Notes under the pieces: generated by a model
Seen by the model: only the letters and a program-made list of their open reading frames with translations
Database searches by the model: none
What the model was told of the DNA's origin: nothing
DNA from: Amaurobius ferox
Taxonomy: Eukaryota; Arthropoda; Arachnida; Araneae; Amaurobiidae
Direction: 5' to 3'
Length of the DNA stretch: 64,000 bases
Assembly (NCBI GenBank): GCA_951213105.1
Contig: OX578139.1
Span: forward strand, 69,502,754 to 69,566,753
Translations under genes and position numbers: made by a program
Shown here: positions 926-57,262 of the stretch, piece after piece
Layout of the letters: the number at the start of each line of letters is the position of its first letter
Numbering within the stretch: position 1 is the stretch's first letter

Positions 926-2657
926 CTGATGTCGACAGCACATGACTTTCCTTATATAATGCAATGAAATTGCTCCTTCTACAATCAAAAAATAATGTAC
1001 ATATAATCTACGGTAATGTGTTTTTAATGTTATATTGTACATTTGGCGATTTTCCGGACGACAACATATAATAATATTTCAAAGTACCCAATTAACTTAT
1101 ATTTCACACAGCTCTAAATTAATAATTATTAATATTGATAGCATCCTCAATAAGCGATATAGTCCATATATTAAAATATTTTAATTATTATTATTTTAGT
1201 TATTATTTTATTTTTATTATTTTTAATTATTTTATTATAATTATTATTAATTTATTAATTAGGTATCATTTTCATTAATTTAAGGTCATTTTTCCAATTT
1301 TAACGATATTTTCGTCAATTTTGGACGAAATATCGCCAAGTTGGCGATACTTTCCTGGATTATTCGGCAAGTTCGCCAAATACATTACCAAGTGTTATAG
1401 ACAAACGGAGAGCAGAGCAATTCTTAAAGGTATGACCGTTATATGACGGAAATCAGAATTTGCGAAAAATTACTTTAAATTTGGCTTCATTTTTATCAAA
1501 TTGGCAACGTTTTTATCACTTTGGCAACATTTAAAATAGTCGTCAAGTTAACGACGTCCCGCTAAATTTCTCGCCAAGCGTTACGAATGGATAGACAGAA
1601 AAATGGGTTATTATTATAGTCTACTCTTATGTTCTTTACAAGATATTGAACTTTCATCAATTAGTAGCCTTTTCATTGACTTAGTGTCGTTTTCATTAAT
1701 TTGGTGAATTTTTATCAATTGGGTGATATTTTCGTCAATTCAGCAACAATTAAAAAGTCAGCAAGTTGGAGATATTCCGATAAATTCATCACCAAAATTT
1801 TGACAAACGTTATGGACGGAAAAATAGGTTATTCTTATTAGATTCTTATATTCTTTCCAAGATATTGAATTTTAGTCAATTAGTCGTCAGTTTTATTTTA
1901 TTTAACGTTATTTTTATCAATTTAGCGACATTTTCGTTAATTTAACAACATTTAAAAAGTCGTCAAATTGGCGGCATTTCGCCAAATTCATCGCCAAAAT
2001 CTCGCCAAGCATTACACAAGAGGAGACAAGTTATTCTTTTAGCAGATAAATTATATATCGAAATATATAAAAATAATATTTCGAGTATTAGCGTCCAAAT
2101 ACAAAATTATTGCCTAAAGTATATTTTCTCATGAATAGAACGAGCTAGATCCACGAGAACAATGTCACCATATTTATCGCATGATATTACATGTGAAAAG
2201 CGAACATATTTTACAGTAGTTAATTCTTTTTTATGGGATTTTTTGATAAATTTATTTGAAAAATGTGCAATATCTCATGAACGGTTCATGCTAGCGTTCT
2301 AAAATTTATGTCCATCGCTTTCTATTAAAAAATTCCATAAGAAATGACTACTTGCGTAACTTTATTAAAGGTTTTGATTTTTTGATGATTTTTTTCAAAA
2401 TTTCACTCGCAAATTTAGGGGGTTCTGAACATTCGATTGTGTTTGAAAATAATAGGCTTCCAATATTCACGGATTGTAATTTTTGATCCAAATTTTGTTC
2501 GAATCGCTCCATTCGTTCGTGAGATATCGTCTTCTTAGACAAGCACACAAGGATGCTTGAAACGTGCTTTCCCGACTAAAACTCGCATTCGAATTATCGA
2601 CCCAGTTACAATACTTTCCTTATACTCTTTCCTTATACTATGTAGTATATAAGGAAA
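926..2657 (+). mobile_element. Helentron-like non-autonomous element, family A, long form
   Basis: The element starts with CTGATGTCGACAGCACATGA followed by ACTTTCCTTATATAATG. It ends near 2657 in a stem-loop whose arms repeat CTTTCCTTATA and TATAAGGAAA. Between them lie blocks shared with all family A copies: the CGCCAAGTTGGCGA block, GAACGGTTCATG, and the AGGCTTCCA block. This copy is longer (1.7 kb) than the usual ~1 kb. It carries an extra 5' block (TTGTACATTTGGCGATTTTCCG) shared with the copies at 36.7-38.1 kb and 43.6-44.5 kb, and repeated CGCCAAG modules at about 1330, 1540, 1760 and 1960. The usual (CA)n tract is reduced to almost nothing. No long open frame exists. Confidence 0.75.
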
Positions 2658-3230
2658 ATAAAAATATTCAGAACAGGCAAATTAAATTTACACGATTAAT
2701 CGTTTAATGTAATTAAACATTCAAAATCTTTCCAAACTGCAGTGCACCTGGCTATCCGAATTCCATTTATGAAATTACTTCCATTCCGACATAACAAATA
2801 GGCAGCCATTAACGGATAGTTAAGCTATATCTAAAAATCATCAACTGCAAGTTTGCAGTCTCTAAACTATCATTCGAATGAGAAATCGTTCATTATACAA
2901 AACTCGTATTCAGCTGGCGCTTCCTTAAGACCTACCTCGTCGCCTGCTTATCTCATTGGCACAGTTATGATGTTCGTTCTGAATTTGTGAAGCAAACGAT
3001 TCTTGGTCATTCAGGTATTAGTAAACAACTAGCATTTTCACGATCAGTTTTAGTTAAAGAATTTCGCGTTTCTCGAAAACGGGTGGAATTGAGAGACAGA
3101 ATTGTTTGTACGATGGCGACTTTACTGTTTGTAAAACTTTTGAAATATTTCGAAGTTTAAAACAATCCGGGAAGTCAAGGCGAGAGAGAAAACATTCAAG
3201 ATTTCGAAAATTAACAGATTATGTAATTAT
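2658..3230. other. Unassigned AT-rich stretch
   Basis: I see no recognisable gene or repeat end here. The stretch separates two family A elements in opposite orientation. It contains short runs such as CATTCGAATGAG but no open frame of note. Confidence 0.5.
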
Positions 3231-3231
3231 T

Positions 3232-3359
3232 TTTACTTTCCTTATATACATAATGTATAAGGAAAGTATTGTGGCGGGGTCGAAAATTCCAATTCGAGTT
3301 TTCGACGGGAGAGCACGTTTCAAGCATCCCTGATCACGAATCAAACATTTTTGAGGTGA

Positions 3360-3391
<32 letters not shown>

Positions 3392-4272
3392 AAAGTGTGT
3401 GTGTGTGTGTGAAAGTGTGTGTGTGTGTGTGTGTGTGTGAAAGTATGTGTGTGTGTGTGAAAGTATGTGTGTGTGTGTGAAAGTATGTGTGTGTGTGTGT
3501 GTCAGTGAGTCTGTGAGGACGATAACTGACGAAGGAATGGACCGATTCGAACGAAATTTGGTACAAAATTCACAATCCATAAACACTGGAAGCCTATTGT
3601 TTTTATACGCAATCGAATGTTCAGAACTCCCGTAAATTTTCAAGTGAAATTTTGAAAAAATCGTCAAAAAATCGAAACTACTAATAAAGTTACGCAAATA
3701 GACATTTCTTATGTAATTTTTTGTTTGAAAACGATTGACATAAATTTTAGATGCTAACATGAACCGTTCTCGAGATATTGCACATTTTTGAAAAAAATTA
3801 TCAAAAAGTCATATAAAATAAAAAAAATACTTCCTATTGAGAAACATGTTCACTTTGCATATGTAATACCATGCGATAAATTGGGTGACATTATTCTCGT
3901 GGATCTAGCTCGTTCCATTCATGAAAAAAGGTACTTTGAGTAATACTTTTGTATTTGATTTCCAATAATCATTTATCTGCTGTAAGAATAACTTATTTCT
4001 TCGTCCATAACGCTTGGCGAGATTTTGGCGACGATTTTGGCGGAATGTCGCCAACTTGGCGACTTTTTGAAATGTTGCCAAATTAAGGAAACACTCGCCA
4101 AATGGATAAAAAGGACGCTAAATCAATGAAAATGACACTAATTGTCGAAAATTCATTATCTTGGAAGGAATATAAGTATCTACTAAGAAAAACCTATTTT
4201 TTTTACTGTAAAAGTAGTAAATCCATTACATTATATAAGCAAAGTCATGTGTTGCCCACATCAGATTTTTAT
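3232..4272 (-). mobile_element. Helentron-like element, family A, full length
   Basis: Read on the minus strand, this copy begins at about 4272 with ATCTGATGTGGGCAACACAT, then gives the ACTTTGCTTATATAATG motif and the CGCCAAGTTGGCGAC block. It ends at 3235-3268 in a stem-loop with 12-bp arms, ACTTTCCTTATA and TATAAGGAAAGT. The 3361-3510 tract is an interrupted (TG)n/(CT)n microsatellite about 90 bp inside the hairpin. The reading frames over that tract are low-complexity shadows. The layout (small 5' hairpin, microsatellite, 3' hairpin whose arm recurs near the 5' end) is that described for DINE-1/HINE elements. The autonomous partner is not in the window. Confidence 0.8.
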
Positions 4273-9821: not shown

Positions 9822-10562
9822 AATCTGATGTGGGCAGCACATAACTTTCCCTGCAGACTTATATTCACGTTCTCATTATTTTAATTAAATTTAATTCACT
9901 TTTAATTCAATTTTCGTTTTCATTTGATAACTGGACTTATTTTCAAAGATGGCGTAGAAAAAATACGAAAAAACTGAAATATTTCGAGAACAGCTAGTCC
10001 TAGTGTAATGGGATTGGTCTTATTCTTTTCTTCGTTAAAAATTACGTATTAAAACGAGCATTTAATGGATATATTTGAGCATACGTAGTTCTTTATTTTA
10101 AATTTTGGCGATTTTTGCGGGCCATTTTGCAAAAAAAGGCAGGTTATTTTTTCCGAATCGTACCAAAATCTAATCAGCACCAACGTGACCCACAAACGAC
10201 TTATCTACCAAATTTTGTTAAATTCGATCCATTACATTTTCAGCTAGAGTGAATACAATCCTTTGCGGGCCATTTCGCAAAAAAAGGCGGGTTCCTTTAT
10301 CCCGAATCGTACCCAAAACTAATCAGCACCAGATTTGCCCACACGTGACTTACCAACCAAATTTTATGAAATTCGGTCAATTAGTTTTTTAATTAGAGTG
10401 GATACAAAATCTGCACAGACACACACACAGACGTCACGCTAAAAATAGTTTTTTCGTATTCTAGAGGTATCGAAACGTGTAGATCCGTCGAAAACTCGAG
10501 TTGCGGTTTTAGGCATGATTCCAATACTTTCCCTATACATTACCATGTATTGCAGGGAAAGT
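9822..10562 (+). mobile_element. Helentron-like element, family B, full length
   Basis: Starts with ATCTGATGTGGGCAGCACAT and ACTTTCCCTGCAG. It ends in the hairpin ACTTTCCCTATACATTACC paired with GTATTGCAGGGAAAGT. Inside are two tandem modules of about 130 bp, each opening with TGCGGGCCATTT and carrying CCGAATCGTACC and AATCAGCACC. A short (CA)n lies at about 10421. The terminal sequences are nearly those of family A while the interior differs, so A and B probably share one transposition machinery. Confidence 0.8.
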
Positions 10563-11540: not shown

Positions 11541-11585
11541 TAACACTTTACAACAAAGTTGAAAAGTGTTTATGACTTTGTTCAT

Positions 11586-11627
<42 letters not shown>

Positions 11628-12850
11628 CGTTAGCACGATAACTGCCGTAAAAATGACTTAATCAAAATGAAATTTTAGTATGTTGTTCAGACGGTCTATA
11701 GGACCTATGGGAATATAAATGAATAATATCACCCAATTAGTTTTGGATTGAACCCGGGTTGAAAAAATGGAATACATTGAGCCCTATGGGACCTAATTTT
11801 TCAAGCATTTTTTAAGCGGATTTAAAATTCACAAATTGCTTCGAAAATTTTAGGCAATATTCAAATTGTTCCATAAAATATATAAAAAAAAATTCAGCGA
11901 AATATATTCAGTTGTTTTTAAATAAAAATTAAAATAATAATAACACCTCTTATATTAAGCGATCACGTGTCCATGATATGAAACGATCACATGACCCACT
12001 TCAAAATGATATATGGCATCCATCTTGTGTCAAAATCGTGATTTTTAAAGTTCTTTTTAATTCATATTGAGTGTTGTATCCGTCCTAAAATTACTTTATT
12101 TTTGCCTAAATTCTGTGCATCTACATACTGAAACAACGCAATGACAATATATTTCAGTTTAAATGCTCTTCCAAATTTGATTATTTCTACTATTAAGCCT
12201 ATTTTTCACCTATGTAAAATGTAAACAGCAAAATATGTAGAATGAGTTGTATTAGAATCGCTGTAATTCTTTAACACAAAATCATTTAGTCCATGGAGTC
12301 TGCTTAGCTGATATGAATTCATTGATTTTAGAAAGAGAAGGACGATATTTTTCGATGAAGTTTTACGCATAGAGCTTACTTACTTCCAGCTCAATGGTCT
12401 TAATTTTTAAATAAAATAAATTATTATAGTATTGTGATGAATGACATGAATGGGGGAATTATTTATGAATGAAATATTGCTTTTATAGAGAGAGCCAGGC
12501 GTGTTATTTTTTTATGACGTCATTTGAATGGATTTCAGTTGTTTTCGATGAAGTTTTCAAATATAATAAATTATCGTAGTATTATGATAATTCTAAAATT
12601 ATTACCGAGGAATGTATAACATTTAAGAGATGTTTAAACCAGGCAATTTATACTTTAATGCCGTCATTTGAATGAAGTTAATTTTTTTCGATGAAGGTTT
12701 AAGGTTTCAAATATAATAAATTAATGTAGTATTGTGATAAGTTTTAAAATATTACCGAGGAATGTATTGCATTTTAGACATGTTTAAATAAAATTGCATT
12801 GAAGTTGGAAAGTGTTTCATAATCAATGCTTTAAGCATGATTGATCTTTC
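11541..12850 (-). mobile_element. Helentron-like element, family D
   Basis: At its left edge lies the hairpin AACACTTTACAACAAAGTTG paired with AAAAGTGTT, followed by a (CTGT)n microsatellite at 11586-11626. On the opposite edge GAAAGTGTTTCATAATCAAT repeats the hairpin arm. Read on the minus strand this is the family plan: a 5' motif repeated in a 3' hairpin, with a (CAGA)n tract just inside. A second copy at 49.13-50.40 kb is colinear over nearly its whole length (GATAACTGCCGTAAAAATGA, ATCACCCAATTAGTTTTGGA, ATTGATCTTTCTTG), which fixes the approximate ends. No coding capacity. The Helentron assignment rests on structure only. Confidence 0.65.
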
Positions 12851-12889
12851 TTGTATGGATATATCTTTGGAGAAAGTTATGCAGGACAG

Positions 12890-13715: not shown

Positions 13716-14082
13716 TTCATTTGTCTTTTCTTCATTACAGTTCTTCATTCCTTCAAACAATTCGTCTCTGTGTGGATTCATTTAGATGTTGACTAGATGT
13801 AAAATATTTACCTTCGCGAAAAGAGCTTCCTTCAAACGCCATTCGCTTGGAGCAGCCTTTTACTCTTTTAAGTACTGTAACGCAGTAACACAAAGCGTAG
13901 CATAAAATATTATTTTATTAATTTGCCGGACGGCATACAACTAAAACATACATTCTTTGATGAGAATTAGAAGATTCTGATGAATCTATAACTTGGTGTC
14001 GGCACATAAAATACGAACTCGAAATACATTTTACCATCTTTTCTCTGCTATCTAACTCCAAAAACTTCTAAACAATTTAAAA
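13716..14082. other. Unassigned stretch
   Basis: Nothing recognised between the tandem array and the start of a nested family A element. Confidence 0.45.
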
Positions 14083-14083
14083 A

Positions 14084-15401
14084 ATCTGATGTGGGCAACA
14101 CATGGCTATCCTTATATAATGCAATGAATTTACTACTTTTCCAGTTAAAATAAATGTTATTCTTATAGTAGATACTTATATTCTTTCCAAGATATTGAAT
14201 TTTTTTCAATTAGTCGTCATTTTCATTGGTTTAGAATCATTTTTTTTTCCATTTGGCGAGATATTTGTTAATTTGGCAACAATTAAAAATGTCGCCAAGT
14301 TTGCGACATTCTGCCAAATTCGTCGCCAAAATCTCGCCAAGCGTTAGGGACGAAGAAATAAGTTCTTCTTACAGCAGATAAATGACTATTGGCGTTCAAA
14401 TACAATAGTATTACTCAAAGTATCTTTTTTCATGAATGGAATGAGTTCAAGAGAATAATGTCACCAAATTTATCGCATGGTATTATATATTAAAAGTGAA
14501 AATGTTTCTCAATAGGAAATATATTTTTTTTACTTTATATAACTGTTTGATAATTTTTTTGAAAAATGTGCAATATCTCGAGAACGGTTCATGTTAGCGT
14601 TCCAAAATTTATATCAATCGTTTTCTAATAAAAAAAAATCAGATGTGGGCAACACATGACTTTCCTTATATAATGTAATGAATTTACTACTTTTACAGTA
14701 AAAAAATAGGTTTTTCTTATAGTAGATACTAATATTCTTTCCAAGGTATTGAATTTTCGACAATTAGTCGTCATTTTCATTGATTTAGCATCATTTTTAT
14801 CCATTTGGCGAGATTTTCGTTAATTTGGCAACATTTCAAAAAGTCGCCAAGTTGGCGACATTCCGCCAATTTTGTCGCCAAAATCTCGCCAAGCGTTATG
14901 GACGAAGAAATAAGTTATTCTTACAGCAGATAAATGATTATTGGCGTTCAAATACAAAAGTATTACTCAAAGTATCTTTTTTCACGAATGGAACAAGCTA
15001 GATCTACGAGAATGATGTCACCCAATTTATCGCATGGTATTACATATGAAAAGTGAACATGTTTCTCAACAAGATTGTTTTTCAATTTTATATGACTTTT
15101 TGATATTTTTTTTGAAAAATGTGCAATATCTCGAGAACGGTTCATGTTAGCGTTCTAAAATTTATGTCAATCGTTTTCTAATGAAAAATTACATAAGAAA
15201 TGTCTATTTGCGCAACTTTATTAGTGGTTTTGATTTTTTGACGATTTTTTCAAATTTTCATTCGAAAATTTAGGGAGGTTCTGAACATTCGATTGCGTAT
15301 AAAAACAATAGGCTTCCAGTGTTTACGGATTGTGAATTTTGTACCAAATTTGGTTCGAATCGGTCCATTCGTTCGTCAGTTATCGTCTCCACAGACCCAC
15401 T

Positions 15402-15446
<45 letters not shown>

Positions 15447-15455
15447 ACACACATA

Positions 15456-15491
<36 letters not shown>

Positions 15492-15850
15492 TCACTTCAA
15501 AAATGTTTGATTCGTGATCAGGGATGCTTGAAACGTGCTCTCCCGTCGAAAACTCGAATTCGAATTTTCGACCCCGTCACAATACTTTCCTTATACATTA
15601 TGTATATAAGGAAAGTAATTACATAAAAAATGTCTATTTGCGTAACTTTATTAGCGGTTTTGATTTTTTGACGATTTTTTCAAAATTTCACTAAAAAATT
15701 TAGGGGTTTCTGAACATTCGATTGCGTATAAAAGCAATAGGCTTCCAGTGTTTACGGATTGTGATTTTTGAACCAAATTTCGTTCGAATCGGTCCATTCG
15801 TTCGTCAGTTATCGTCTCCACAGACTCACTGACACACACACATACACAAC

Positions 15851-15882
<32 letters not shown>

Positions 15883-16012
15883 GGCATCACTTCAAAAATG
15901 TTTGATTTGTGATCAGGAATGCTTGAAACGTGCTCTCCCGTCAAAAACTCGAATTCGAATTTTCGACCCCGTCACAATACTTTCCTTATACATTATGTAT
16001 ATAAGGAAAGTA
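14084..16012 (+). mobile_element. Family A element interrupted by a second family A copy
   Basis: The outer copy starts at ATCTGATGTGGGCAACACAT (about 14087). It runs to TCAATCGTTTTCTAATA at about 14627, is broken by a complete A copy, and resumes at ATTACATAAAAAATGTCTAT (about 15620). It ends in its own hairpin at 15979-16012. Joining the two parts restores the order seen in uninterrupted copies, where TCAATCGTTTTCTAATGAA leads into ATTACATAAGAAATG. The break falls in an A-run followed by T. The outer (CA)n is at 15833-15882. Confidence 0.85.
14638..15619 (+). mobile_element. Inner family A element, full length (self-insertion)
   Basis: A complete copy of about 980 bp starts at ATCAGATGTGGGCAACACAT and ends in the hairpin at 15586-15619. 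It has (CA)n at about 15400-15486 and all internal family blocks. Same orientation as the host copy. No target-site duplication is evident, as expected for rolling-circle elements. Confidence 0.85.
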
Positions 16013-16014
16013 AA

Positions 16015-16465
16015 AGAAGCATTGCGATATATAGGGAAACATTACAAGAAATATTTATACTTTTCCCATAAGCAATCACATGTCAGACATGTCGATTGAA
16101 ACTGTATAAATGTAAAAATCAATTGACAAAAGTCATGGAATGAAATATACTCAATTTTTATACAAAATTTAAATAGTTTATTTGAAATCTTGAAAAGACA
16201 TTCTAGCATTAGATTTCATGGGTAATTTAAATGTCAACTCCAATTATTCGTGCATACCAAACAAAACGAAACCTTACGATATACGAAAACATTACAAGAA
16301 ATCTTTAAACTTTTCCCATAAGCAATCACATATCAGACATTTCGATTGAAACTGTGCAAATGTAAAAGCACATAAATTGCCATAAGTCATGGAATGAAAT
16401 ATACTCAATTTTTATGCAAAACTTAAATACTTTATTTGAAATTTTGAAAAGACATTCTAAAAGTA
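16015..16465. repeat. Direct duplication, ~252-bp period
   Basis: The segment beginning GCGATATATAGGGAAACATT (about 16024) recurs as ACGATATACGAAAACATT at about 16276. Both continue with ACATTACAAGAAAT, TTTTCCCATAAGCAATCACA and GTCATGGAATGAAATATACT. The copies differ at scattered positions, so the duplication is old. It begins directly after the outer family A hairpin. Confidence 0.85.
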
Positions 16466-16748: not shown

Positions 16749-17417
16749 TTAACTTTCCCTACAATACATGATAATGTGTAGGAAATGAGTTCGAAAATTG
16801 AAAGTTATGCAAAGGATTTGCATGTTCTTATAGATGTAAAACACTAGAAAATTATTTTTGCATGACTATGTATGTCTGTGTGTCTTGCAAAATGTATATA
16901 TCCGCTTTATCTCCATATGCAAAGAATTTTAAACTATGCATTATTCCGGTGCTGATTAAATTTTAGTGTGATGGGAAAAAAAAAACTGTTTTTTTTTTCT
17001 TTTCTTTTTTCAAAAATGTTGCGAAAAAAATCATCAAAATTTAAAAGAAAGATTAAAAATTCTTAAATGCGGTAATTAAGTTTTGGGATAGACCTTTTTA
17101 TAGATATTTCAGTTTTGAAAAGATTTTGGTGAGTTGGCACTCTTAAAAATGCGCTAAGTCGCCAATTGAAAAAAAAATGCTTTAAAACTACAAAAAGGAT
17201 ATAGTTTCAAATAAACATCCATTCCATGTTTTGCTTTGTTTGACAACATTTTCATGCATTACGGAATACATGAAGGAAAGAAGAATATGTATAAAAAATA
17301 AGAATTAGAAAAATAAGTAAATAAATTATAAATAGAAATAAGTAATTAAATAATAAATAAATTAAAACAAGAAGAATCTGTAGAAAAGTCATGTGCTGCC
17401 CACATTACATGTTTATT
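16749..17417 (-). mobile_element. Diverged family B-like Helentron element
   Basis: The left edge has ACTTTCCCTACAATACATGA with a partial return arm (GTGTAGGAAAT), followed by TGTATGTCTGTGTGTC. The right edge near 17393-17417 gives, on the minus strand, TGTGGGCAGCACATGACTTT. GGTGCTGATTAAATTTTAGT near 16950 matches the family B module. The interior is heavily diverged, which marks an old copy. Confidence 0.6.
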
Positions 17418-27714: not shown

Positions 27715-27848
27715 TACTTTCCTTATATACATAGTATAATGTATAAAGAAAGTATTGTGACGGAGTCGAAAATTCGAATTCGAGTTTTCGACGGGAGAGC
27801 ACGCTTCAAGCATCCCTAATCACGAATCGAACATTTTGGAAGTGATGT

Positions 27849-27899
<51 letters not shown>

Positions 27900-30197: not shown

Positions 30198-30268
30198 TTT
30201 TACTGTAAGAGTAGTAAATCCATTTCATTATATAAGGAAACTCATGTGCTGCCCACTTCAGATTTTTA

Positions 30269-34380: not shown

Positions 34381-34704
34381 ACACATACTTACTCATATGC
34401 GCATACTTACACACACACACACATACTTTCACACATATATACTTACACACACATACTTACACACACATACTTACTTACACACACATACTTACACACACAC
34501 ACACACATACTTACACAAACGCACACACATACTTACACAAATACACATATACTTACACACACACGCACCACAGACTACCTCAAAAGCGTTCGATTCGTGT
34601 TCAGGTTCTCCTTGAAACATGCTCTCCCTGGAATTCGAATTTTCGACCCTGTCTCAATACTTTCCTTATATATTATACTATGTTACTATGTATATAAGAA
34701 AAGT

Positions 34705-35870: not shown

Positions 35871-36742
35871 TAGCAGCACAACTAGCAATGTACGGTTTCA
35901 ATACTAAATCCACTATGTATGAATTAACGGCCATGCCAATCTTAATGAATTTGACATTTAAAAGTTTAACTTTAAGCTTTATTTTTAAATGTGTCCCACA
36001 CTTTCCGTTCGGGACCCAAAATGGATGCCAGCAATACAAGCTCTGAAAAAACATTGTCAAAACGGAACACAATATGAATTAAATAGATTTTAAGTCGTAT
36101 CTCTATGCATAACACATAAATTTGCAGAAGACACAATAAAATAGGGCGTCTGTGGGATAAAAGAATAAAGTAATAGAAATAAATATCGCGAAGAAATAAT
36201 GGAGAAAAATGTCGCCATTATCAAAATTTAAATATGGAGGATAAATGCAAATGCACATTTTTTGCTAGGATTACGGGATCAGCACAAATATATTCCAACA
36301 AAACGCTTCGGAAAAGAGTTGTATTATAACTCCCACTATTTCAAAAGACGTAAGGATTTGAAATCCATTCTATGTTTATTCCAAACCCGTAGTATTTTAC
36401 TGAGCAAATAAAAATGCCTTTATCTGGATAATAAAAACAAATTTTTAAAATTGATATAGTATAAATTGAGCTTTGTTATTTACTACAATCGATGATTCGG
36501 AAATATATTTTCCCTAGAATTTCCGATTTGTTTACAAAAGTTATTCAGAAACAGCTTTGTAAAAGTCCCAAGGTTACTATTGTAGTTTATCTCCGTTTGC
36601 GTCAAACAATTGAATTGCTTTATATCAAATTACTTTTTTCTTTATTTTTTCTTCATAAATTTTACTGTCTGGGTTTGAAATGAAATAGTGAGTAACTCTG
36701 TTACTCGTTATAGATTGATGTGAGTTATCACTCCTCCGCATA
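35871..36742. other. Unassigned AT-rich stretch
   Basis: No gene, tRNA-like head or element end recognised. Confidence 0.45.
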
Positions 36743-36886
36743 TTACTTTCCTTATATACATATTATAATGTATAAGGAAAGTATAGTGACGGGGTCGAGA
36801 ATTCGAATTCGAGTTTTCGCCGTGAGAGCAAGTTTCAAGCATCCATGAGCAGGAATCGAACGTTTTGAGGGGATGTCTATGTGTAT

Positions 36887-36917
<31 letters not shown>

Positions 36918-38095
36918 GAGACGGTATCTCACGAACAAATGAAGCGATTTGAACTAAATGCGGTACAAAAATTACAATCAGCTAGTTCTGAAAGTCTATT
37001 GTTTCTTAATGCAATCGAATGTTCAGAACACCACTCAATTTTCTTATAAAATTTTGAAAAAATCATCAAAAAATAAAAACCTTCAATAAAGTTACGTAAA
37101 TAATTATTTCTGAAGTATATTTTTTATTATAAAACGGTTGACACAAAATTTAGGACGCTAGCACGAACCAATCTCGAGACATTACACATTTTTCACATAA
37201 ATGTATCAAAAAATCACATAATTAACTATTGCAACATATGTTTACTTTTATATGTAATATTATGCAATAAAGTTGTTAACATCCTTCTCGTAAATCTATC
37301 TCATTCCATTCACGAAAGAATATACTTCAGCTAATAGTTTTTTATTTGGACGCCTAGTCACTTACCTACTACAAGAATAACCAATTTCTAGTCCATAACG
37401 CTTCACGAAATTTTGACAACGACTTTAGCGGAATATCGCCAACTTGGCGACTTTGTTAAATGTTACCAAATTGACGAAAATGTCCCAAAATTCATGGAAA
37501 TGAGGCTAAATCAATGAAGATGACGACTAATTTATGAAAATTCAATTTCTTAGAGAGAACATAAGAATCGACTATAAGAATAACCCATTTCTCTGTCCGG
37601 AATGCTGGGCAAAAATTTTGTCGGGATATCGCCAACTTGGCGACTTTTTAAAATGTTGCCAAAGTGACGAAAATATCGCCAAATTGATAAAAATTACACC
37701 AAATGGGAGGTAATGTTTTGCAAATTTTGAATTCCGTCGTATGACGGGCATACCTTCTAATATATAAGAAATGCTCTCCTCTCCATTTGTCTGCAACACT
37801 TGGCGATACATTTGGCCAACTTGGCGAATAATCTAGCGGAATATCGCCATATAAGCAATATTTCGTCCTAGATTGACAAAAATATCTTCAAAATTGCAAA
37901 AAATGACTCCAAGTTATGAACTAATTAGTAAGTTGAATATATTGCTCATTGAGGATGCTATCAATATTAATAACTGTTAATCTAGTCTTACGTGAAATAT
38001 AAGTAAATTGGGTATCATGAAATATTATTAAATGTTGTCATCGGGAAAAGCGCCAAATGTACAATTTAATGTTAGAAACGCTGTACCGTGAATGA
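36743..38095 (-). mobile_element. Helentron-like element, family A, long form
   Basis: 3' hairpin at 36745-36785 (ACTTTCCTTATATACATATT with return arm), (TG)n at 36885-36917. It then proceeds through repeated CGCCAACTTGGCGAC modules near 37436 and 37629 to the long-form block CATTGAGGATGCTATCAATA (37946), which matches CATCCTCAATAAGC at 1143 in the first long copy. The 5' terminal motif is missing, so the right end near 38095 is a truncation. Confidence 0.72.
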
Positions 38096-41560: not shown

Positions 41561-41689
41561 GGCGCGACTAGTACGGATTCAGTGGACTCTTGAAGATTGA
41601 GCGCCGATTTCAAATTGATAGGATAATGACCAAGCAAGATACTAATCTGGGTGAAAATAGCAGTAGCAGGAGGCTAACCTGAAGTAAAA
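41561..41689. other. Short spacer
   Basis: Sequence joined to the LINE 5' break; not recognised. Confidence 0.35.
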
Positions 41690-41691
41690 AA

Positions 41692-42462
41692 AATCTGATG
41701 TGGACAACACATGACTTTCCTTATATAATGCAATGAATTTACTACTTTTACATTTAAAAAAAATGTTATGCTTATAGTAGATACTTATGATCTTTCCAAG
41801 ATATTGAATTTTCTTCAATTAGTCGTCATTTTCATTGATTTAGCGTCATTTTTATCCATTTGGCGAGATTTTTGTTAATTTGGCAACAATTAAAAGTTTC
41901 GCCAAGTTGGCGAAATTCCGCCAAATTCGTCGCCAAAATCTTGCCAAGCGTTATGGACCGAAAAATAAGTTATTCTTACAGCAGATAAATGACTATTGGC
42001 GTTCAGATACAAAAGTATTACTCAAAGTATCTTTTTTCATGAATGGAACGAGCTAGATCCATGAGAATGATGTCACCCAATTTATTGCATGGTATTACAT
42101 ATGAAAAGTGAACATGTTTCTCAATAGGAAATATATTTTTTTTTAATTTTATATAACTTTTTGATAATTTTTTTGAAAAATGTGCAATATCTCGAGAACG
42201 GTTCATGTTAGCGTTCTAAAATGTATGTCAATCGTTTTCTAATGAAAAATTACATAAGAAATGTCTATTTGTGTAACGTTATTAAAGGTTTTAATTTTTT
42301 GACGATTTTTTCAAAATTTCACTCGAAAATTTAGGGAGGTTCTGAACATTCGATTGCGTATAAAAACAATAGGCTTCCAGTGTTTACGGATTGTGATTTT
42401 TGTACCAAATTTCGTTCGAATCGGTTCATTCGTTCGTCAGTTATCGTCTCCACAGACTCACT

Positions 42463-42513
<51 letters not shown>

Positions 42514-42682
42514 CTTCACACACACACACACACACATATCTTCACACACACACACATCACCTCAAAAACGTTTGATTCATGATCGGGGATGCTTGAAACG
42601 TGCTCTCCCGTCGAAAACTCGAATTCGAATTTTCGACCCCGTCACAATACTTTCCTTATACATTATGTATATAAGGAAAGTA
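41692..42682 (+). mobile_element. Helentron-like element, family A, intact copy
   Basis: The best complete example, about 990 bp. The 5' end is ATCTGATGTGGACAACACAT then ACTTTCCTTATATAATGCAA. The CGCCAAGTTGGCGA block follows, then GAACGGTTCATGTTAGCG. The (CA)n tract is at 42464-42557, and the 3' hairpin is ACTTTCCTTATA ... TATAAGGAAAGT at 42649-42682. It can serve as the reference for family boundaries. Confidence 0.85.
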
Positions 42683-42765
42683 ACATCAGGAGGTGGTCAG
42701 TCAGATTGTCAGTTTTCCGCCAATCTGACATTAGAGGATGGAGAATATAGAGTCCACGTCGACAA

Positions 42766-43405: not shown

Positions 43406-43563
43406 TGCATTGTTATTATATTTGTGTGTTACTTAATTTTCCCTTATCATTCACACAAAATGCATTTTACTTATTAAGCATTTAATTATTCAATAAATTT
43501 ATTCAAGCATATTTAGCGGATAATTTCAGATTTTGTGGATTTTTTCAAACCATTTCGTTAGAA

Positions 43564-44546
43564 TAAATCTGATGTGGGCAGCACATGACTTTCCTTATAC
43601 AATGCAAAGAACTTGCTTCTTTCACTGCGAAAAATTGATGAGCCTTGTTTTTAACATTGAATTGTATATTGGCGATTTTCCGTATGATAACATGTAAATT
43701 ATTTTGAAATACCCATTTAATTTATATTTAATTTTCATCAATTAGTCGTCATTTTTATTGATTTAGTGTCATTTTTATCAAATTGGCGACATTTTCTTCA
43801 ATTTGGCAACATTAAAAAAGGTCGATATGTTGACGATATTCCGCGAAATTAGTGGCCTAAATTTCGCCCAACGTTACGAACAGAGACATAGGTTATTCCA
43901 GTAGATAAATGACTATTGGCAAAATGTTAGGTGTCAAGATACAAAACTATTACCAAAAGTATCTTCTCTTTTGAATGGAACGAACTAGATCCACAAGAAT
44001 GATGTCAACAAATTTATCACATAATATTACATATGATAAATAAACATATTTTACAATTTTTTTTTAATTTTATGTGATTTTTTGATAATTTTATTTTAAA
44101 ATGCCCAATATCTCGAGAATGATTCATACTAACGTTCTAAAGATTGTACCAATCGTTTTCTAATGACAAATTACATAATAAATGATTATTTGCTTAACTT
44201 TGTTGAAGGTTTTGATTTTTTGATGATTTTTTAAATTTTATTCGGAAATTTAGGTGTATTCTGACCATTCGATTACGTTTAAAAACAATAGGCTTCCAGT
44301 ATTCACTGATTGTAATTTTGTACCAAATTTCGTTTGAATCGCCTCGTTCGTTCGTGATCTCCACAGTCTCACGACACAAATAAACATATTCACACACACA
44401 CGCACACATACAAACACACACACCACCTCATAAACGTTTGATTCGTGTTTTGAAACGTGCTCTTCCGTCGAAAACTCGAATTCGAATTTTCGACCCCCGT
44501 CACAATACTTTCCTTGCACATTATATTATGTATATAAGGAAAGTAA
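43564..44546 (+). mobile_element. Helentron-like element, family A, long-form 5' end
   Basis: Starts AATCTGATGTGGGCAGCACA, ACTTTCCTTATACAATGCAA. It includes the long-form ATTGGCGATTTTCCGTATGA block and then standard family A sequence, a short (CA)n region at about 44388-44424, and the hairpin at 44510-44546. About 980 bp, because repeated CGCCAAG modules of other long copies are absent. Confidence 0.8.
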
Positions 44547-44559
44547 ATAACGTTCACTT

Positions 44560-44836
44560 TTTTTTTATCAAATCATACTAAAATCTAATCAGCACAACTA
44601 TAACGCATAAATGACTTAACTCCCCAAATTTCAAGAAATTTTGTCTGATAGTTTTTTATCTAGAATGGATACCAGACACACGAGCGCACACACAGTCAAC
44701 ACTACATACACAAAATAGTGAATTTATGTTCTATAGTATCCAAAACATGTACGTTCGTTGAAAACTCGAATTCCAATTTTCGACACTTCCAGTACTTCCC
44801 CCATATATCACGATCTATTGTAATGGAAAACGATAA
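44560..44836 (+). mobile_element. Family B 3' fragment
   Basis: Has AAATCATACTAAAATCTAAT, CAGCAC, AGAATGGATACCAGACACAC and TCGTTGAAAACTCGAATTCC, ending near a decayed hairpin (about 44807-44830). It directly follows the preceding family A hairpin. Confidence 0.65.
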
Positions 44837-45131: not shown

Positions 45132-45465
45132 ATTACTCTCCTTACATACTTAGTGTAATGTGCAGGGAAAGTAAAAGTAATGTGCAGTAATGTGCAGCAG
45201 GGAAAAAGTAATGTGCAGGGTAAAAATTCTAATTCGCATTTTCGACCGAACAGCACGTTTTAAGCATCCCTAAACTAAAATCGAACGTTTTTGAGGTAAT
45301 GTCTATGTCTGTGTGTGTATTAGTGTATGTGCACGTTAATGTGTGAGTCCGTAAGTCTGTAAATGCGATATTTCACGAACGAATAAAGCTATTCGAAAAT
45401 AATTTGGTACGATCATTACAATCAGTGAATGCTAGAACCCTATTGAATTTAAACGGGAATGTTTG
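45132..45465 (-). mobile_element. Family A 3' fragment with expanded hairpin region
   Basis: Hairpin-like TTACTCTCCTTACATACTTA is followed by three near-repeats of GTAATGTGCAGGGAAA, a local expansion not seen in other copies. The CAGCACGTTTTAAGCATCCC block, a TG-rich tract and TCACGAACGAATAAAG follow. It breaks off near 45465 where SINE sequence begins. Confidence 0.7.
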
Positions 45466-49132: not shown

Positions 49133-49180
49133 GATTAACACTTTATAACACAGTTGAAAAGTGTTTATGACTTTAGTCAT

Positions 49181-49211
<31 letters not shown>

Positions 49212-50395
49212 TTTCGCATGATAACTGCCGTAAAAATGACTTTATCAAAACGAGAATTTAATATGTTGTTGAGAAAGTCTGTGGGACATATGAGAATGTA
49301 AATGAATAATATCACCCAATTAGTTTTGGATTAAATTCGGGTTGAAATAATGAAATACATTGAACCCTATGGGACCTAATTTTCAAAAAAAATTTTAAGC
49401 TAAGTTTCACAAATTGCTTCGAGAATTTTAGGAAATATTCAAAACATCCCATAAAATATATAAAAGGAATTTCAGCAAAATATGTTCAGTAGTTTTTTAA
49501 AAGAAAATTAAAATAATAATTACACCCATATAATATGCAGAGATCACGTGATCCGCTTCAAAATAATATATGACATCCATCTTTTTTTCAAAAGTAAGCA
49601 TTGTGATTTTTAAAGTACTTTTAAATTTAGATTTAGTGTTGCATTATCCTAAAACCGCTTTAATTTTTTTTTCAGTACATCTATATTCTGCGCCAACGAA
49701 ATTACAATATTTTGGAGTTTAAATGATCATCAAACTTTGATTATTTCTACAACGAAGCCTAATTTTAACATATGCAGAATGTAAACAAATCAAGCTGCAA
49801 GATGAGTTGAATAAGAATTGCTGATTTTTTTAAAGCAACATTATTTAGCTCTGGAGTCTGAAATATAGGTGATATGAATGAAATATTCATTGATGTTGTA
49901 TAGAGAAGCAGACAATTTTATAGCATTAACTATTTCGATGAAGTTTTAAGCATGGAGTTAGAAAGTACTTTTACCTCCATAATTTTAAGTTTCCAAGTAA
50001 AATAAATTATTGTAGTACTGTGCTAATTTATGAGAATATAGACAAGTGATTGTAGGATGATTGTATAAGAATTGATGAATCTTTTTCACGCAAAATTATT
50101 TAACTCTGGAGTCTGGAATAAAAGTGTATGTGAATGACATATTCACTAGTTTTATGTAGTGAGCTAGACAATTTTTATTTCAATCACGTTATTTGAATAA
50201 AATTCATTTTTTTCGATAAAGTTTTAAGTTTTCAAGTAAAATAAATTATTGTATTTTTGTGATAATTAAAAACTATCACCGCTGAATGTATCGCATTTTA
50301 GAGATGCGGATTGCATTTCATTTAGAAAGTGTGCATTTCATTTAGAAAGTGTTTCATAATCAATGCTTTATTCATGATTGATCTTTCTTGTTTAA
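49133..50395 (-). mobile_element. Helentron-like element, family D, second copy
   Basis: Hairpin AACACTTTATAACACAGTTG / AAAAGTGTT at 49137-49165, (CTGT)n at 49181-49210, then GATAACTGCCGTAAAAATGA and the same blocks as 11541-12850. Ends AAAGTGTTTCATAATCAATG, then ATTGATCTTTCTTG. The GAAAGTGTGCATTTCATTTA segment near 50328 is locally duplicated. Colinear with the first copy apart from small indels. Confidence 0.65.
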
Positions 50396-51816: not shown

Positions 51817-52472
51817 ATATGCTATACTAGAATATGTTTTATATAGAAATACATATCTGATATAATTTTCCGTAATGCATTATTATTCCTTATGGATTAT
51901 TATAAAGATTTGCATAATGCAACGTTTTGAAATAACTTGAATCCCAACCATGTGATATTTTAGATAAAAAGATTGAAAATGTATCAATACTTCCGAGCCA
52001 TCTCACTTATATTGAGTACAAAACTTTGCTTCCAAAAATATATCTTCCGAATCCCGGCTTTAAAAACTCTTCTAATTTCAAACAAAAATATTATTGTAAA
52101 TGCAATTTTCGAATTTTGCCGAAAACGAGATTAAAGAATTCTCAAACACATTTCAAGGAATAATACTTGCTTGTATTTTCGCTCTTTCAATATGTAAAAA
52201 AGAAAAAGAGAAAATGCAAGGGGTAAAATTTGGTTTTAAAGATAATGTATATTTCTTTACGGTTAAGCAATTTCAAACTTCTCAATCAGTGGAAGATTTG
52301 AAAAATAACACATGTCTTAAACTCTAAAACTACTTCAAGCAGGATCTTTAAGTACATTTAACTGGTAAAATTTTGAATTGAAAAGGATTCAAAACTATTT
52401 ATCTTGAAAGGAGGAATGGTGTTTCCGGTACCAATTTAACTACAAACTATCTGCTCAGTAGAGCCAGCAGTT
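51817..52472. other. Unassigned AT-rich stretch
   Basis: No feature recognised. Confidence 0.45.
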
Positions 52473-52967
52473 ATTACTTTCCTTATATACACAATGTATA
52501 AGGAAAGTATTGCGACGTGGTCGAAAATTCGAATTCGAGTTTTCGACGGGAGAGCACGCTTCAAGCATCTCTGATCACAAATCAACCATTTTTGAGGTGA
52601 TGTCTGTGTGTATGTGTGTGTGTGTGTGTCAGTGAGTCTGTGGAGACGATATCTCACGAACGAATGGAGCGATTCGAATGAAATTTGGTACAAAAATCCC
52701 AATCCATGAATACTGGAAGCCTATTGTTTTCAAACGCAATCTAATGTTCAGAATCCCTCCCCCCCACCCTAAAATTTGGAGTGAAATTTTGAAAAAATCA
52801 TCAAAACATCAAAAACATTAATAAAGTTACAAAAATAGACATTTCTTATGTAAATTTTCCTTAGAAAACGATTGACATAAACTTTAGACCGCTAGCATGA
52901 ACCGTTCTCGAGATATTGCACATTTTGCAAATGAATTTATAAAAAAAATCCCATAAATTAAAAAACA

Positions 52968-53884
52968 AAATCTGATATGGGCAGCACATGACTTTCCTTA
53001 TATAATGCAATGAATTTACTAATTTCACAGTAAAAAAAATAGATTATTTTTATAGTAGATATTTCTATTCTTTCCAAGACATCGAATTTTCGTCAATAAG
53101 TCGTCATTTCCATTGATTTAGCGTAATTTTTATTCACTTGACGAGTTTGTCGTTAATTTACCAACATTTAAAAAAGTCGCCAAGTTGGCGACATTCCACC
53201 AAATTCGTCGCCAAAATCTTGCCAAACGTTATGGACGAAGAAATAAGTTATTCCTACAGCAGATAAATAACTATTGGCGTTCAAATACAAAAGTATTATT
53301 CAAAGTGACTTTTTCATGAATGGAACGAGATAGATCCACGAGAATGCTGTCACCAAATTTATCGCATGGTATTACATAAGAAAAGTGAACATAATTCTCA
53401 ATAAGAATTTTTTTTTTTTATTTTATATGACTTTTTGATAATTTTTTTAAAAATGTGCAATATCTCGAGAACAGTACATGTTACCATTCTAAAATTTATG
53501 TCAATCGTTTTCTAATGAAAAATTACATTAGAAATGTCTATTTGCGTAACTTTATTAGCGGTTTTGATTTTTTGACGATTTTTTCAGAATTTCACTCGAA
53601 AATTTAGGGGGGGTTCTGAACATTCGATTGAGTATAAAAACATTAGGCTTCCAGAGTTTATGGATTGTGATTTTTGTACCAAATTTCGTTCGAATCGATC
53701 CATTCGTTCGTCAGTTATCGTCTCCAAAGTCTCAATGACACACACACACACACAAACATCACTTCAAAAATGTTTCATTCGTGATCAGGGATGCTTGAAA
53801 CGTGCTCTCCCGTCGAAAACTCGAATTCGAATTTTCGACCCCGTCACAATACTTTCCTTATACATTATGTATATAAGGAAGTAA
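52968..53884 (+). mobile_element. Inner family A element (opposite orientation)
   Basis: Starts AAATCTGATATGGGCAGCAC and ends in the hairpin near 53850-53882, where the last arm has lost one base (TATAAGGAAGTA). About 915 bp with a short (CA)n at 53739-53757. Confidence 0.85.
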
Positions 53885-54203
53885 AAATGAGAAACATGTT
53901 CGCTTTTCATATGTAATATCATGCGATAAATTGGGTGTCATCATTGTCGTGGATCTAGCTCGTTCCATTCATGAGAAAAGATACTTTGAGTAATACTTTT
54001 GTATTTAAACACCAATAGTCATTTATCTGCTATAAGAATAACTTACTTCTCCGTCCATAACGCTTGGCGAGATTTTGGCGACTTTTTAAAATGTTACCAA
54101 ATCAACGAAAATCTCGCCAAATGGATAAAAATGACGCTAAATCAATGAAAATGACTGCAAATATTCGAAAATTCAATATCTTGGAAAGAATACAAGTATC
54201 TAC

Positions 54204-55322
54204 TGTTCCATAGCAAATATGGAACGTTGTGAATTGTGGAGGGAGTGCAACCTCCAAAGATGGTCCCTGTGCTACTCCTACAATACTTATGCATTTCCCT
54301 TGGTCAACACCTGCAAAAGGGTGAACAAGCAATGTTTCTGCGAAATATGGACAGAAATGGCTCAGTTACAGAGGGGCTCACAGCAGGGCGCTTTTGGGGA
54401 GAGCTGACCCTTGACCGTTTCCGGACGCACGTGCGCCCAGGTTCATGGGAACTTTGGCCCAGCTGTCAAATATTAATGCTGGGGTGCTAACCAACCCTCT
54501 GTCATCACATCACCCAATAGCTGGATATAATCCTGTGGTATCCAATCAAAATACCAGAGGCTTCAGTTGGGGAAGCCAATAAGAGACCTGGGGCTTAATT
54601 GTGTAGGAGGTGACATTTTTCGGATGTTTGAGAGAGAGTGAGATTTTGAGAAAGGAAGCGAAAATTGATTTTGTGATTTTGGAGAGAAGAGTCTCCCAAA
54701 AGATGATTGCAGAGATGACGGTCCACCGATGATTCCTCGCCCGAGGACCCCTCATCCGATGACGGTTCAACAAAATATTGAAGGTATGCAATGCATGTCC
54801 TTTACACTCAGTCTGTTGACGCTATGTTACTCTCCCTCTCTCTCTCTCGACATCGTACTCGCTTTTGCACTTAAGTAATCAGTGTGGAAATTGTTTTTAA
54901 TTGCATTTTGATAGATACTTAAAATTATTACGAGTGTGATTTTAATTATAACCTTAAATGAAGGAGTTTAATTGTATACCCTAAATGTTCATAATTAAGA
55001 GAAGTGTGCATATGGCACGTAACAATTATTGTTACAATGGAAATACACGTGAATATCAATACAAATATTAATGGAGAATAATTATGGTTTAGTGAGAGTG
55101 TCAATTAAATATGTTATTATTACTTTTAATTTCTTTTTTGTTAATAAATATGTTATTGTTTTAAGTTTTGTTCGCTGTCCTCATTTCTAATTAATATCTT
55201 ATTGATTGATTATATGTAATTTTATTCGACACGGCCAATGTCGGAGATTGCTTTAATGGGTAATAATAATAAGGATGATTTTTTGCGTTTTGACCGAACG
55301 TGTGGGGAAAATCCACGCAACA
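54204..55322 (+). repeat. 5' LTR
   Basis: Begins TGTTCCATAGCAAATATGGA, itself a short palindrome, and ends near AAAATCCACGCAACA just before the primer-binding site. Contains a TCTC tract (54833-54848), which is shorter in the 3' LTR. Confidence 0.8.
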
Positions 55323-55327
55323 AAAAA

Positions 55328-55350
55328 TGGTTCCGATGACCAGGATTCGA
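55328..55350 (+). promoter_or_regulatory. Primer-binding site
   Basis: TGGTTCCGATGACCAGGATT begins with TGG, complementary to a tRNA CCA end. The following bases would pair with an acceptor stem and T-arm (the complement reads AATCCTGGTCATCGGAACCA). A tRNA-Glu-like primer is possible but I could not settle identity. Confidence 0.55.
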
Positions 55351-55856
55351 AATAAAAATAATTGATAAAATAACTGAATTTTTTTTGTGAATAAATTAAA
55401 ATTAATGTGCGTGATAGTAAAATTTGAAATAAAATTAACTTAAAATAACATTAACTTGAAATAAATTTAAAATAAAAACTTAAACTTTAAAATTAAATTT
55501 AACGTAAGGAAATGAGGACATTTAAGAAAATAGGTGTTGTCACAAGTGTTATGCCATATGTATATGAGGTGTTTATTTAAGAAATGTTGTGTATATTTAA
55601 GAAAAAGAATTATAGGATTAAATGTATTGAGTTAGGGGAGAAAAATCGGAGAAAATTAATAATGGATGGTAATATTTTTTGGGAACTAAATTTTTGGAAA
55701 TATGATAGGAGTATGATTTTATGTGTAAGATTTTTGAGTATCAATATTTGTATTTTTATGTTGCATGAAAAGTATTGTATTTATGTAAACGGGTAATGTT
55801 CGTAGGGATAGAAATTTTGATTAGAGAATTAAGGGAAAACTTAACAAGTTTTAAAA
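55351..55856. other. Untranslated leader of the LTR element
   Basis: AT-rich sequence between the primer-binding site and the gag start, with no structured feature recognised. Short frames here appear incidental. Confidence 0.5.
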
Positions 55857-56157
55857 ATGACAAAAAGGGGTGATATGACGGTAACGCCTACAGGTAGGAT
55901 CCCTGGGATTATATCCTTGTTAGAAGAACTGAGCGGAAGCGACGAGAACGAGACCTCCATGTTTTTTGAACAGATGGAATCATTAAACGAATTAACAAAT
56001 TGGAATGATTTAGAAAAATTAGCAATTGTGAAATCCCGTCTGCGCGGAAACGCAAAAAAATTCTACATCGGCTCAAAGGACCTGCGTAGCGAAACATCTT
56101 TCGAGGCTTTCAAACAAAGGGGAGCGAAACATCTTTCCTCGAAAGATGTTTCGCTAC
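55857..56157 (+). pseudogene. Gypsy-type gag, N-terminal fragment
   Basis: The ATG at 55857 opens a frame whose first 85 or so residues are gag-like. It contains SLLEELSGSDENETSMFFEQ, then LNELTNWNDLEKLAIVKSRL and RGNAKKFYIGSKDL. The pattern 'FFEQ...l..W....k......LrG.A..fy' is the capsid N-terminal signature of arthropod Gypsy-type gag. Gag forms the particle that packages the RNA. After about residue 85 the frame enters a hairpin and then the 3' LTR, so the remaining gag and all of pol are gone. The reading frame's continuation to 56339 is LTR sequence. Confidence 0.7.
56086..56157. repeat. Palindromic breakpoint hairpin
   Basis: GTAGCGAAACATCTTTCGAGG at 56086-56106 is perfectly repeated in reverse complement at 56137-56157, and the first 13 bases also recur directly at 56124-56136. 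The hairpin lies exactly where gag stops and 3' LTR sequence starts. Confidence 0.9.
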
Positions 56158-57167
56158 ACCTGCAAATGGGTGAACAAGCAATGCTTCTGCGAAATATGGA
56201 CAGAAATGGCTCAGTTACAGAGGGACTCACAGCAGGGCGCCTTTGGGGTGAGCTGACCCTTGACCGTTTCCAGACGCACGTGCGCCCAGGTTCATGGGAA
56301 CTTTGGCCCAGCTTTCAAATATTTATTCTGGGATGCTAACCAACCCTCTGTCATCACAGCACCCAATAGCTGGATATAATTCTGTGATATCCAATCAAAA
56401 TACCAGGGGCTTCAGTTGGGGGGGAGCAATAATAGACCTGGGGCTTAATTGTGTAGGAGGTGATATTTTTCGGATGTTTGAGAGAGAGTGAGATTCTGAA
56501 AAAGGAAGCGAAAATTAATTTTGTGATTTTAGAGAGAAGAGTCTCCTAAAAGATGACTGCAGAGATGACGGTCCACCGATGATTCCTCGCCCGAGGACCC
56601 CGCACCCGATGACGGTTCAACGAAATATTGAAGGTACGCAATGCATGTCCTTTACACTCAGTCTGTTGACGCTATGTTACTCTCTCTCTCGACATCGTAC
56701 TCGCTTTTACACTTAAGTAAAGTAATCAGTGCGGAAATTGTTTTTAATTGTATTTTGATAGATACTTAAAATTATTACGAGTGTGATTTTAATTATAACC
56801 TTACATGAAGGAGTTTAATTGTATACCCTAAATGTTTATAATTAAGAGAAGTGTGCATATGGCACGTAACAATTATTGTTACAATGGAAATACACGTGAA
56901 TGTCAATACAAATATTAATGGGGAATAATTATGGTTTAGTGAGAGTGTCAATTAAATATGTTATTATTGCTTTTAATTTCCTTTTTGCTAATACATATGT
57001 TATTGTTTTAAGTTCTGTTCGCTGTCCTCATTTCTAATTAATATCTTATTGATTGATTATATGTATTTTCTTGACACGGTCAATGTCGGAGATTGCTTTA
57101 ATGGGTAACAATAATAAGGATGATTTTTTGCGTTCTGACCGGACGTGTTTTGAAAATCCACGCAAAA
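56158..57167 (+). repeat. 3' LTR, lacking its first ~105 bp
   Basis: Matches the 5' LTR from CACCTGCAAA (54314) onwards. Ends CCACGCAAA directly before ATCTACT. It has a 4-bp AGTA-type expansion (TAAAGTAATCAG) relative to the 5' LTR. Confidence 0.82.
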
Positions 57168-57262
57168 TCTACTATAAGAAAAACCTATTTTTCTTACTGT
57201 AGAAGTAGGAATTTCATTACATTATATAAGGAAAGTCATGTGTTGCCCACATCAAATTTTTT

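Follow-up and report, generated by a model that had tools for sequence, protein, structure and literature searches.

The genome of the spider Amaurobius ferox (assembly GCA_951213105.1) contains, on contig OX578139.1 at positions 69,502,754 to 69,566,753, a stretch of 64,000 nucleotides, referred to here as the window, with many repeats that have similar ends and different interiors. What class of transposon do these repeats belong to, and which coding elements move them? An initial annotation had grouped them into families A, B and D and proposed that they are non-autonomous and Helentron-like. Our analysis upholds this class: D matches both sides of H2, a Helentron with Rep, helicase and endonuclease regions, and no target-site duplication was found in A or B. 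The best explanation, which we consider highly probable, is that the copies of A, B and D belong to the Helentron/Helitron2 branch of rolling-circle elements and are non-autonomous, with D derived from H2 and B perhaps from another lineage, H3. Genome-wide counts refer to 3.56 Gb in 276 contigs. Published elements are compared on the basis of the available parts of two papers (PMC4067079; PMC5148889).

Copy number and shared ends

The initial annotation counted at least 15 copies in the three families. This is borne out by 14 copies or fragments of A and three of B, counted from BLAST matches, and two of D (Table 1). No family E, the fourth family named in that annotation, could be identified. 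A longer version of the A/B end motif is found at 13 sites in the window when up to 6 substitutions are allowed. The worst site has 3, one of which is an artefact of a literal R in the search pattern. The 27-base A/B end, TCTGATGTGGGCARCACATGACTTTCC, occurs exactly 108,608 times in the genome, and the reversed pattern used as a control has 0 matches, which excludes chance. No exact A/B end was found in viral and bacterial/archaeal contigs. Exact matches in the genome number 30,016 for the B 5' end (44 bases) and 34,327 for the D 5' end (48 bases). The best 40 of 1,882 candidate A matches are 98-100% identical to a 670-base stretch of the window. Such identity among the best-scored matches indicates that some A copies are young.

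Architecture and orientation of the ends

Read 5' to 3', A and B consist of a hairpin preceded by TT, a microsatellite, the body, a second GGAAAGT, an ATGTG...CACAT palindrome, CAGA and a run of T's. The first base of the unit lies directly after the TT, and the hairpin it opens has the form ACTTTCC...GGAAAGT. The 3' palindrome is ATGTG/GGGCA/CACAT, and the terminal sequence after it is CAGATTTTT. The B-type 5' end is TTACTTTCCCTGCA...GGAAAGTATTGG. Subterminal inverted repeats (subTIRs) in A and B were confirmed by comparison of the ends, and the hairpin was confirmed by folding. D is located on the plus strand. Its T-rich flank is followed by a palindromic subTIR (AACACTTT...AAAGTGTT), a TCTG microsatellite and the body. 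On the 3' side, the subTIR GAAAGTGTT is followed by a palindrome (TCAATGC...GCATGATTGA) and then by the end. The D subTIR measures 8-9 bp, as judged by eye.

This orientation of A and B, in which the D layout and the H2 coding frame also run, is the reverse of that in the initial annotation. In the published plan of HINE elements, subterminal repeats of about 11-15 bp are located 2-4 nt from the 5' end and are palindromic there in several families, including those of a mite, a palindrome is located near the 3' end, and T-rich targets, with two or more T's on either side, are preferred (PMC4067079). Since the D layout and this plan match A and B once they are turned round, we conclude that A and B had been reversed. 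The individual features described earlier are largely present, at exchanged ends. The ATGTG/CACAT hairpin is found where it had been placed, but that end is 3', not 5', in A and B. A recurring motif was correctly noted and corresponds to CTTTCC in both arms of the other hairpin. The microsatellite does lie just inside a hairpin end, but this is the 5' end of the reoriented elements.

Target site and insertion

Element borders were analyzed in the window, at 30 end matches on contig C1 (those listed first) and at seven loci picked for their likeness to a window copy. One locus, L001, has the same sequence as the window and was therefore left out of the border, duplication, neighbor and tree analyses. 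All 34 confident 5' ends are preceded by TT. After 57 3' ends, each of the next five positions is T in 96-100%, the first in 56 ends and the second in all 57. Clear target-site duplications had been named beforehand as evidence against the class. Only T's are shared across the border in 34 complete A/B copies, which were selected for TT at the 5' border and in which L020 and L021 are one insertion counted twice, as their flanks are identical. With T's stripped, the flank similarity in these 34 copies is 3.56, compared to 3.26 for mismatched flanks, with no significance test applied.

Nested insertions were compared with uninterrupted A copies. In two of the three cases in the window, removal of the insertion restores the site save for added T's. 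The A copy at 14634-15618 splits its host between GTAATT and TTTC, and nine T's follow the element. The tandem B pair at 28596..30199 splits a T7-T8 run of its host A. The host beside the A copy at 52962-53888 is about 10-12 bases shorter than other copies, reflecting either variation among hosts or the loss of a few bases. An element that carries T5 along, with some slippage, would account for the extra T's; in sample copy L026 the run is two T's shorter than expected. In Culex elements, 2-5 T's belong to the element and their number varies (PMC4067079).

Family D matches both sides of Helentron H2

Helitron Rep domains were matched at 151 places in a Pfam search of the genome. Some matches are strong and canonical, and others are weaker, with frames of up to 2,186 codons. 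A protein search, in which 56 of 321 candidates were scored, indicated three lineages of the Helentron branch that have long frames (H1, H2 and H3), together with decayed relatives.

The H2 copy in C9 opens with the D 5' end. Bases 1-1235 of D match it at 94.7%, and this D-like part runs on into sequence common to the copy in C22. Beyond the frame of the C22 copy, the final 293 bases of D (1022-1314) are found at 98.6%. The C22 frame has 2,186 codons and contains PIF1, a Rep with RGSPHVH and, at its C-terminus, an endonuclease match that is below the Pfam cut-off. Its C-terminal 1,357 residues are 41-46% identical to the nearest dozen relatives among the matches listed. D 1022-1235 is present both before and after the frame, and a deletion between these two stretches could give rise to D. 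Judged from these alignments, D has the appearance of an H2 from which the middle has been deleted, and it is probably moved by H2. An autonomous Rep/helicase element with the same ends, a search for which was proposed in the initial annotation, was found for D, each end being read in a different copy; for B there is a lead in H3, and none was found for A.

Family B and lineage H3

H3 copies are located in C5, C14, C16 and C19, and Rep (RGSPHEH) and PIF1 were read in C14. About 3.6 kb past the end of the H3 frame in C5, and at the corresponding position in C16 and C19, a B-type 3' end is present (three of three copies). It is fused to a B body without roughly the first 60 bases. In C16 this body finishes in a full B 3' end, followed by T5 and further B sequence. 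Upstream of the frame, B-like sequence with a decayed 3' end is found in C16 and C19, both of the H3 copies that reach this region, and the two are 98% alike there over 901 bases. A non-B-like 5' border, which C5 had suggested, is overturned by this sequence. With B-type sequence before and after it, the H3 frame is flanked by B on both sides. These sequences make H3 a candidate parent of B, a pairing that we regard as likely but tentative; B copies may instead have been nested in an ancestor of H3. A search for B-type ends around H3 and H1 found only one, the end beyond the H3 frame. H1 (C12 and C1) contains Rep, PIF1 and an endonuclease that is above the Pfam cut-off for one family.

Family A and its relation to B and D

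The ends of A were not recognized in the stretches read of H1, H2 and H3. No A/B end was found within 3.5 kb at 30 loci around the strongest Rep matches (L039-L068), nor further upstream of two of these elements. H2 was considered as the partner of A because, in C22 and C9, an entire A is found upstream of the H2 frame; the 3' part of this A is present in the C2 stretch. The pairing was rejected because two H2 copies stay homologous past both ends of this nested A, which in C22 spans about G000:C22:480819-482525 (L081 plus L070). Because it is present in several H2 copies, it appears to be carried along with H2. Separately, many canonical Helitron Rep matches at L050-L068 have nearly equal scores, which suggests recent activity of a different Helitron family.

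The interiors of A and B had been described as unrelated. This needs qualification, as about 150 bp beside the large (5') hairpin align at about 71% in BLAST. Within a copy, the 5' and 3' repeats agree at 13.3 of 14 bases in 27 A-labelled copies and at 11.9 of 14 in 7 B-labelled copies; one 581-bp copy in L038 was labelled A in this comparison though its end is B-type. Between A repeats (ACTTTCCTTATATA) and B repeats (ACTTTCCCTGCA), only 9.5 of 14 bases agree. Both ends have changed together between the two families. The published rule for a family is at least 11 identical bp of subTIR (PMC4067079), and under it A and B repeats are too unlike, making them separate families. By this rule, A, B and D represent at least three families.

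The initial annotation further proposed one transposase acting on captured or shuffled interiors. Neither part is supported. The subterminal repeat of the D partner is different, and the repeats of A and B differ from each other. D resembles an H2 deletion derivative, B-like sequence is present in H3, and no capture was seen. Nothing seen requires capture of foreign DNA, which may nevertheless account for the otherwise unexplained interior of A.

Class assignment and comparison with known systems

The initial annotation named DINE-1/HINE elements as the known analogue, and the published plan agrees (PMC4067079). Both groups have a microsatellite, a palindromic subTIR at the 5' side and, at the 3' side, the inverted counterpart of that subTIR together with a palindrome. 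Both have T-rich targets with variable border T's and no duplication, and D resembles a deletion derivative of a Rep-helicase element, as HINEs do (PMC4067079). Unlike the elements in the available parts of the papers compared, where the end sequences of A, B and D were not met, A and B have a very high copy number and 17,289 exact head-to-tail junctions. H1 and H2 share with Helentrons a Rep with RGSPHVH/RGSPHEH, PIF1 and a C-terminal endonuclease match. H3 is similar to Helitron2/FoHeli, being a Rep-helicase with a Helentron-branch Rep motif and no endonuclease seen (PMC5148889). FoHeli1/2 have hairpins at both ends and asymmetric inverted repeats and end in ATTTT, and termini are reported for 48 of 63 Fusarium elements (PMC5148889). 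In contrast to A, B and D, FoHeli elements are fungal, with other end sequences and low copy number (PMC5148889).

Two other classes have to be weighed. Miniature inverted-repeat transposable elements (MITEs) of a cut-and-paste (DDE) transposon would have the end repeats as their terminal inverted repeats. A and B do have inverted repeats of 12-14 bp at their ends, and DINE-1-like elements were formerly filed as MITEs (PMC4067079). However, a duplication other than T's is found in none of the 34 A/B copies, and there is no duplication of fixed length. The extra palindrome at one end, and the match of D to both sides of a Rep-helicase element, also argue against MITEs, which we consider extremely improbable. 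Canonical Helitrons, in the orientation of the initial annotation, would start with 5'-TC and insert between A and T. Read in reverse, most A/B copies start with TCTG after an A, in some cases with a T following, and canonical Reps are common in this genome. Canonical Helitrons also have no duplication, a 3' palindrome and proteins of the rolling-circle family. But the other end is GTAA rather than CTRR, the hairpin abuts the end, and D, the H2 frame and the B pieces relative to the H3 frame all run the opposite way. In their true orientation, A and B are without 5'-TC and 3'-CTRR, and their target is T-rich instead of an A-T site. This assignment is very unlikely.

Several observations weigh against placing A, B and D in the Helentron/Helitron2 branch with H2 and H3 as parents. 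No autonomous partner, and no coding partner of any kind, was found for A. The D ends of H2 were read one per copy, 5' in C9 and 3' in C22, and never both. C22 starts at D position 346, behind another complete D, and C9 is without a matching D 3' end and has another D downstream. The 3' piece in C22 could in principle be a truncated D adjoining H2. H3 is frameshifted near the helicase end in C5 and C14, with a stop soon after, and no endonuclease was found behind its helicase, where the coding end was read in C5 and C14 and not domain-scanned. The B body in H3 is only about 80% like the window B, and the B pieces of H3 could be nested copies carried along, as A is in H2. The ends of H1 were not found by inverted-repeat matching. 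In A and B, about 25 nt separate the 3' subTIR from the 3' end, and in mite HINEs the distance is 38-60 bp (PMC4067079). We read this spacing as a variable, not a defining, dimension of HINEs.

For elements of this branch, we infer mobilization in trans through a single-stranded intermediate. A Rep-helicase supplied in trans would nick and peel one strand between the element ends, and the peeled strand would join a T-rich target, at about TTWTT and before a further T, without duplicating it. Five of the T's seem to come with the element itself. The enzyme would probably be that of H2 for D, and B may belong to lineage H3. As the T5 end would itself be a fitting target, new copies could repeatedly join existing ones head to tail.

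In literature on Helentrons, Helitrons and DINE-1, including spiders and arrays, no listed title names A, B or D, which is no proof of their being unpublished. We tentatively regard them as new families of a known kind, based on a comparison of titles only and without a repeat library. Anonymous high-copy repeats are here tied to coding elements, well for one family of three and tentatively for another, and the annotated orientation of A and B is corrected.

Head-to-tail arrays

Head-to-tail junctions of the form CAGA-T(5 or more)-ACTTTCC number 17,289 in the genome. Junctions with T2-T4 number 155, with a pattern two bases stricter, and five T's form a sharp lower limit. Tail-to-tail pairs were found at 8 places, from 16 matches to a pattern that is longer and palindromic, and this contrast of orientations covers head-to-tail and tail-to-tail pairs only. 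Such pairs form long palindromes, which genomes and assemblies may also lose. Among the first 100 junctions listed, 83 have T5, 15 have T6 and 2 have T7, and 38 have another junction within 2.5 kb, compared to 1.6 expected. Of 21 close gaps between them, 9 are 737-823 bp and 9 are 1,515-1,600 bp, corresponding to one or two B lengths. Abutting pairs in the sample have the same orientation in 11 of 11 cases, four of which reflect nesting.

How the arrays grew bears on the transposition mechanism. Instead of growing by repeated insertion into existing ends, they could have formed in a single step from read-through concatemers or from circles with joined ends, or could have expanded by local duplication. 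The scarcity of T2-T4 junctions is in keeping with this, as is the predominance of exactly T5, the product expected from direct joining of unit ends. Insertion after TTWTT, however, would equally yield T5. The five B neighbor pairs in arrays are 85.0, 85.4, 87.4, 90.3 and 91.7% identical, and the last two exceed the 95th percentile of other B pairs (90.2%; median 86.5%, n=118). The remaining three B pairs, and the two A pairs (83 and 87%, against a median of 86.1 for 955 other pairs), are no closer than unrelated copies. A tree built from 16 B copies clusters, with a support of 0.81, four of the five members of one array, but members of three other arrays are not sisters. We consider one-step formation possible but rather doubtful. 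Repeated insertion at a target supplied by the element's own T5 end is the simpler reading, and at some sites local expansion or joined-end intermediates may play a part.

A bolder proposal is that the 17,289 junctions record a joined-end intermediate, a circle or concatemer, and that these families continually turn a dispersed transposon into short, satellite-like arrays, which would be self-propagating because the T5 end of the element also serves as its preferred target. We put it forward tentatively, with the balance of our judgment against it. Helitron arrays and a bypassed termination signal are mentioned in the available part of one paper (PMC4067079), and joined-end products are reported in Fusarium in that of the other (PMC5148889). 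A single genome here offers junctions by the tens of thousands, along with many nested empty sites, and this material could decide between joined-end intermediates and repeated insertion into a self-made target.

A larger repeat was also observed. Five exact D 5' ends with a spacing of about 8.37 kb at G000:C1:11669541-11703085 form a large tandem array containing D.

Elements and other features of the window

Table 1. Members of families A, B and D in the window, with strand and basis of identification
Feature	Position	Strand	Basis or remark
Family A, broken copy or copies	918..2666 (918-994 and about 1599-2666)	-	BLAST to A
True 3' end of the broken A at 918..2666	918-929	-	End motif at 929
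Family A, full length	3231..4270	+	88.7% to reference A; 5' end TTACTTTCC
Family B, reference copy	9823..10562	-	BLAST, end-pair comparison
Family D	11541..12854	+	subTIRs, TCTG microsatellite; H2 matched by bases 1-1235 and by the last 293
Family A, host split by another A	14079..16015 (14079-14635 and 15617-16015)	-	BLAST
Family A, reference copy, nested in host 14079..16015	14634..15618	-	Comparison with uninterrupted site in other A copies
Isolated A/B-type 3' end	17377..17405	+	End motif
Family A, host split by two tandem B	27710..30267 (27710-28602 and 30195-30267)	+	BLAST
Family B, head-to-tail tandem member	28596..29408	+	BLAST
Family B, head-to-tail tandem member	29409..30199	+	BLAST
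Family A, partial	31014..31766	-	BLAST
Family A, partial, hairpin end and microsatellite	34381..34676	-	BLAST
Family A	36742..37694	+	BLAST
Family A	41689..42683	-	BLAST; 92% to reference copy
Family A, complete, more diverged	43562..44549	-	76% to reference over most of length
B-related fragment	44559..44820	-	BLAST
Family A, partial	45205..45455	+	BLAST
Family D, second copy	49136..50391	+	About 72-78% to first D copy
Family A, host split by opposite-strand A	52470..54204 (52470-52961 and 53889-54204)	+	BLAST
Family A, nested in host 52470..54204	52962..53888	-	BLAST
Family A 3' end, cut at 57165 by long direct repeat	57167..57264	+	BLAST

Two direct repeats of about 1 kb, at 54307-55320 and 56156-57165, are 93.6% alike. 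The frame between them (55845-56339) has no Pfam match. The region 54307-57165 is perhaps a long terminal repeat element that landed in the A copy at 57167-57264. A 527-bp inverted repeat (99%) at 6794-8386 surrounds a reverse-transcriptase frame (7112-7921). For a retroelement in the window, the nearest named relatives come from another spider, Araneus ventricosus, with about 43% identity. A dispersed repeat is found at 19113, 21152, 25335, 34091 and 45676, with a tRNA-like stretch, GGTTCGATTCC, after 34087, and is probably a short interspersed element. The window also contains a tandem duplication at 61356-63835, with a unit of about 1,240 bp and 99% identity, and a 105-bp satellite of about 7 units at 2-784.

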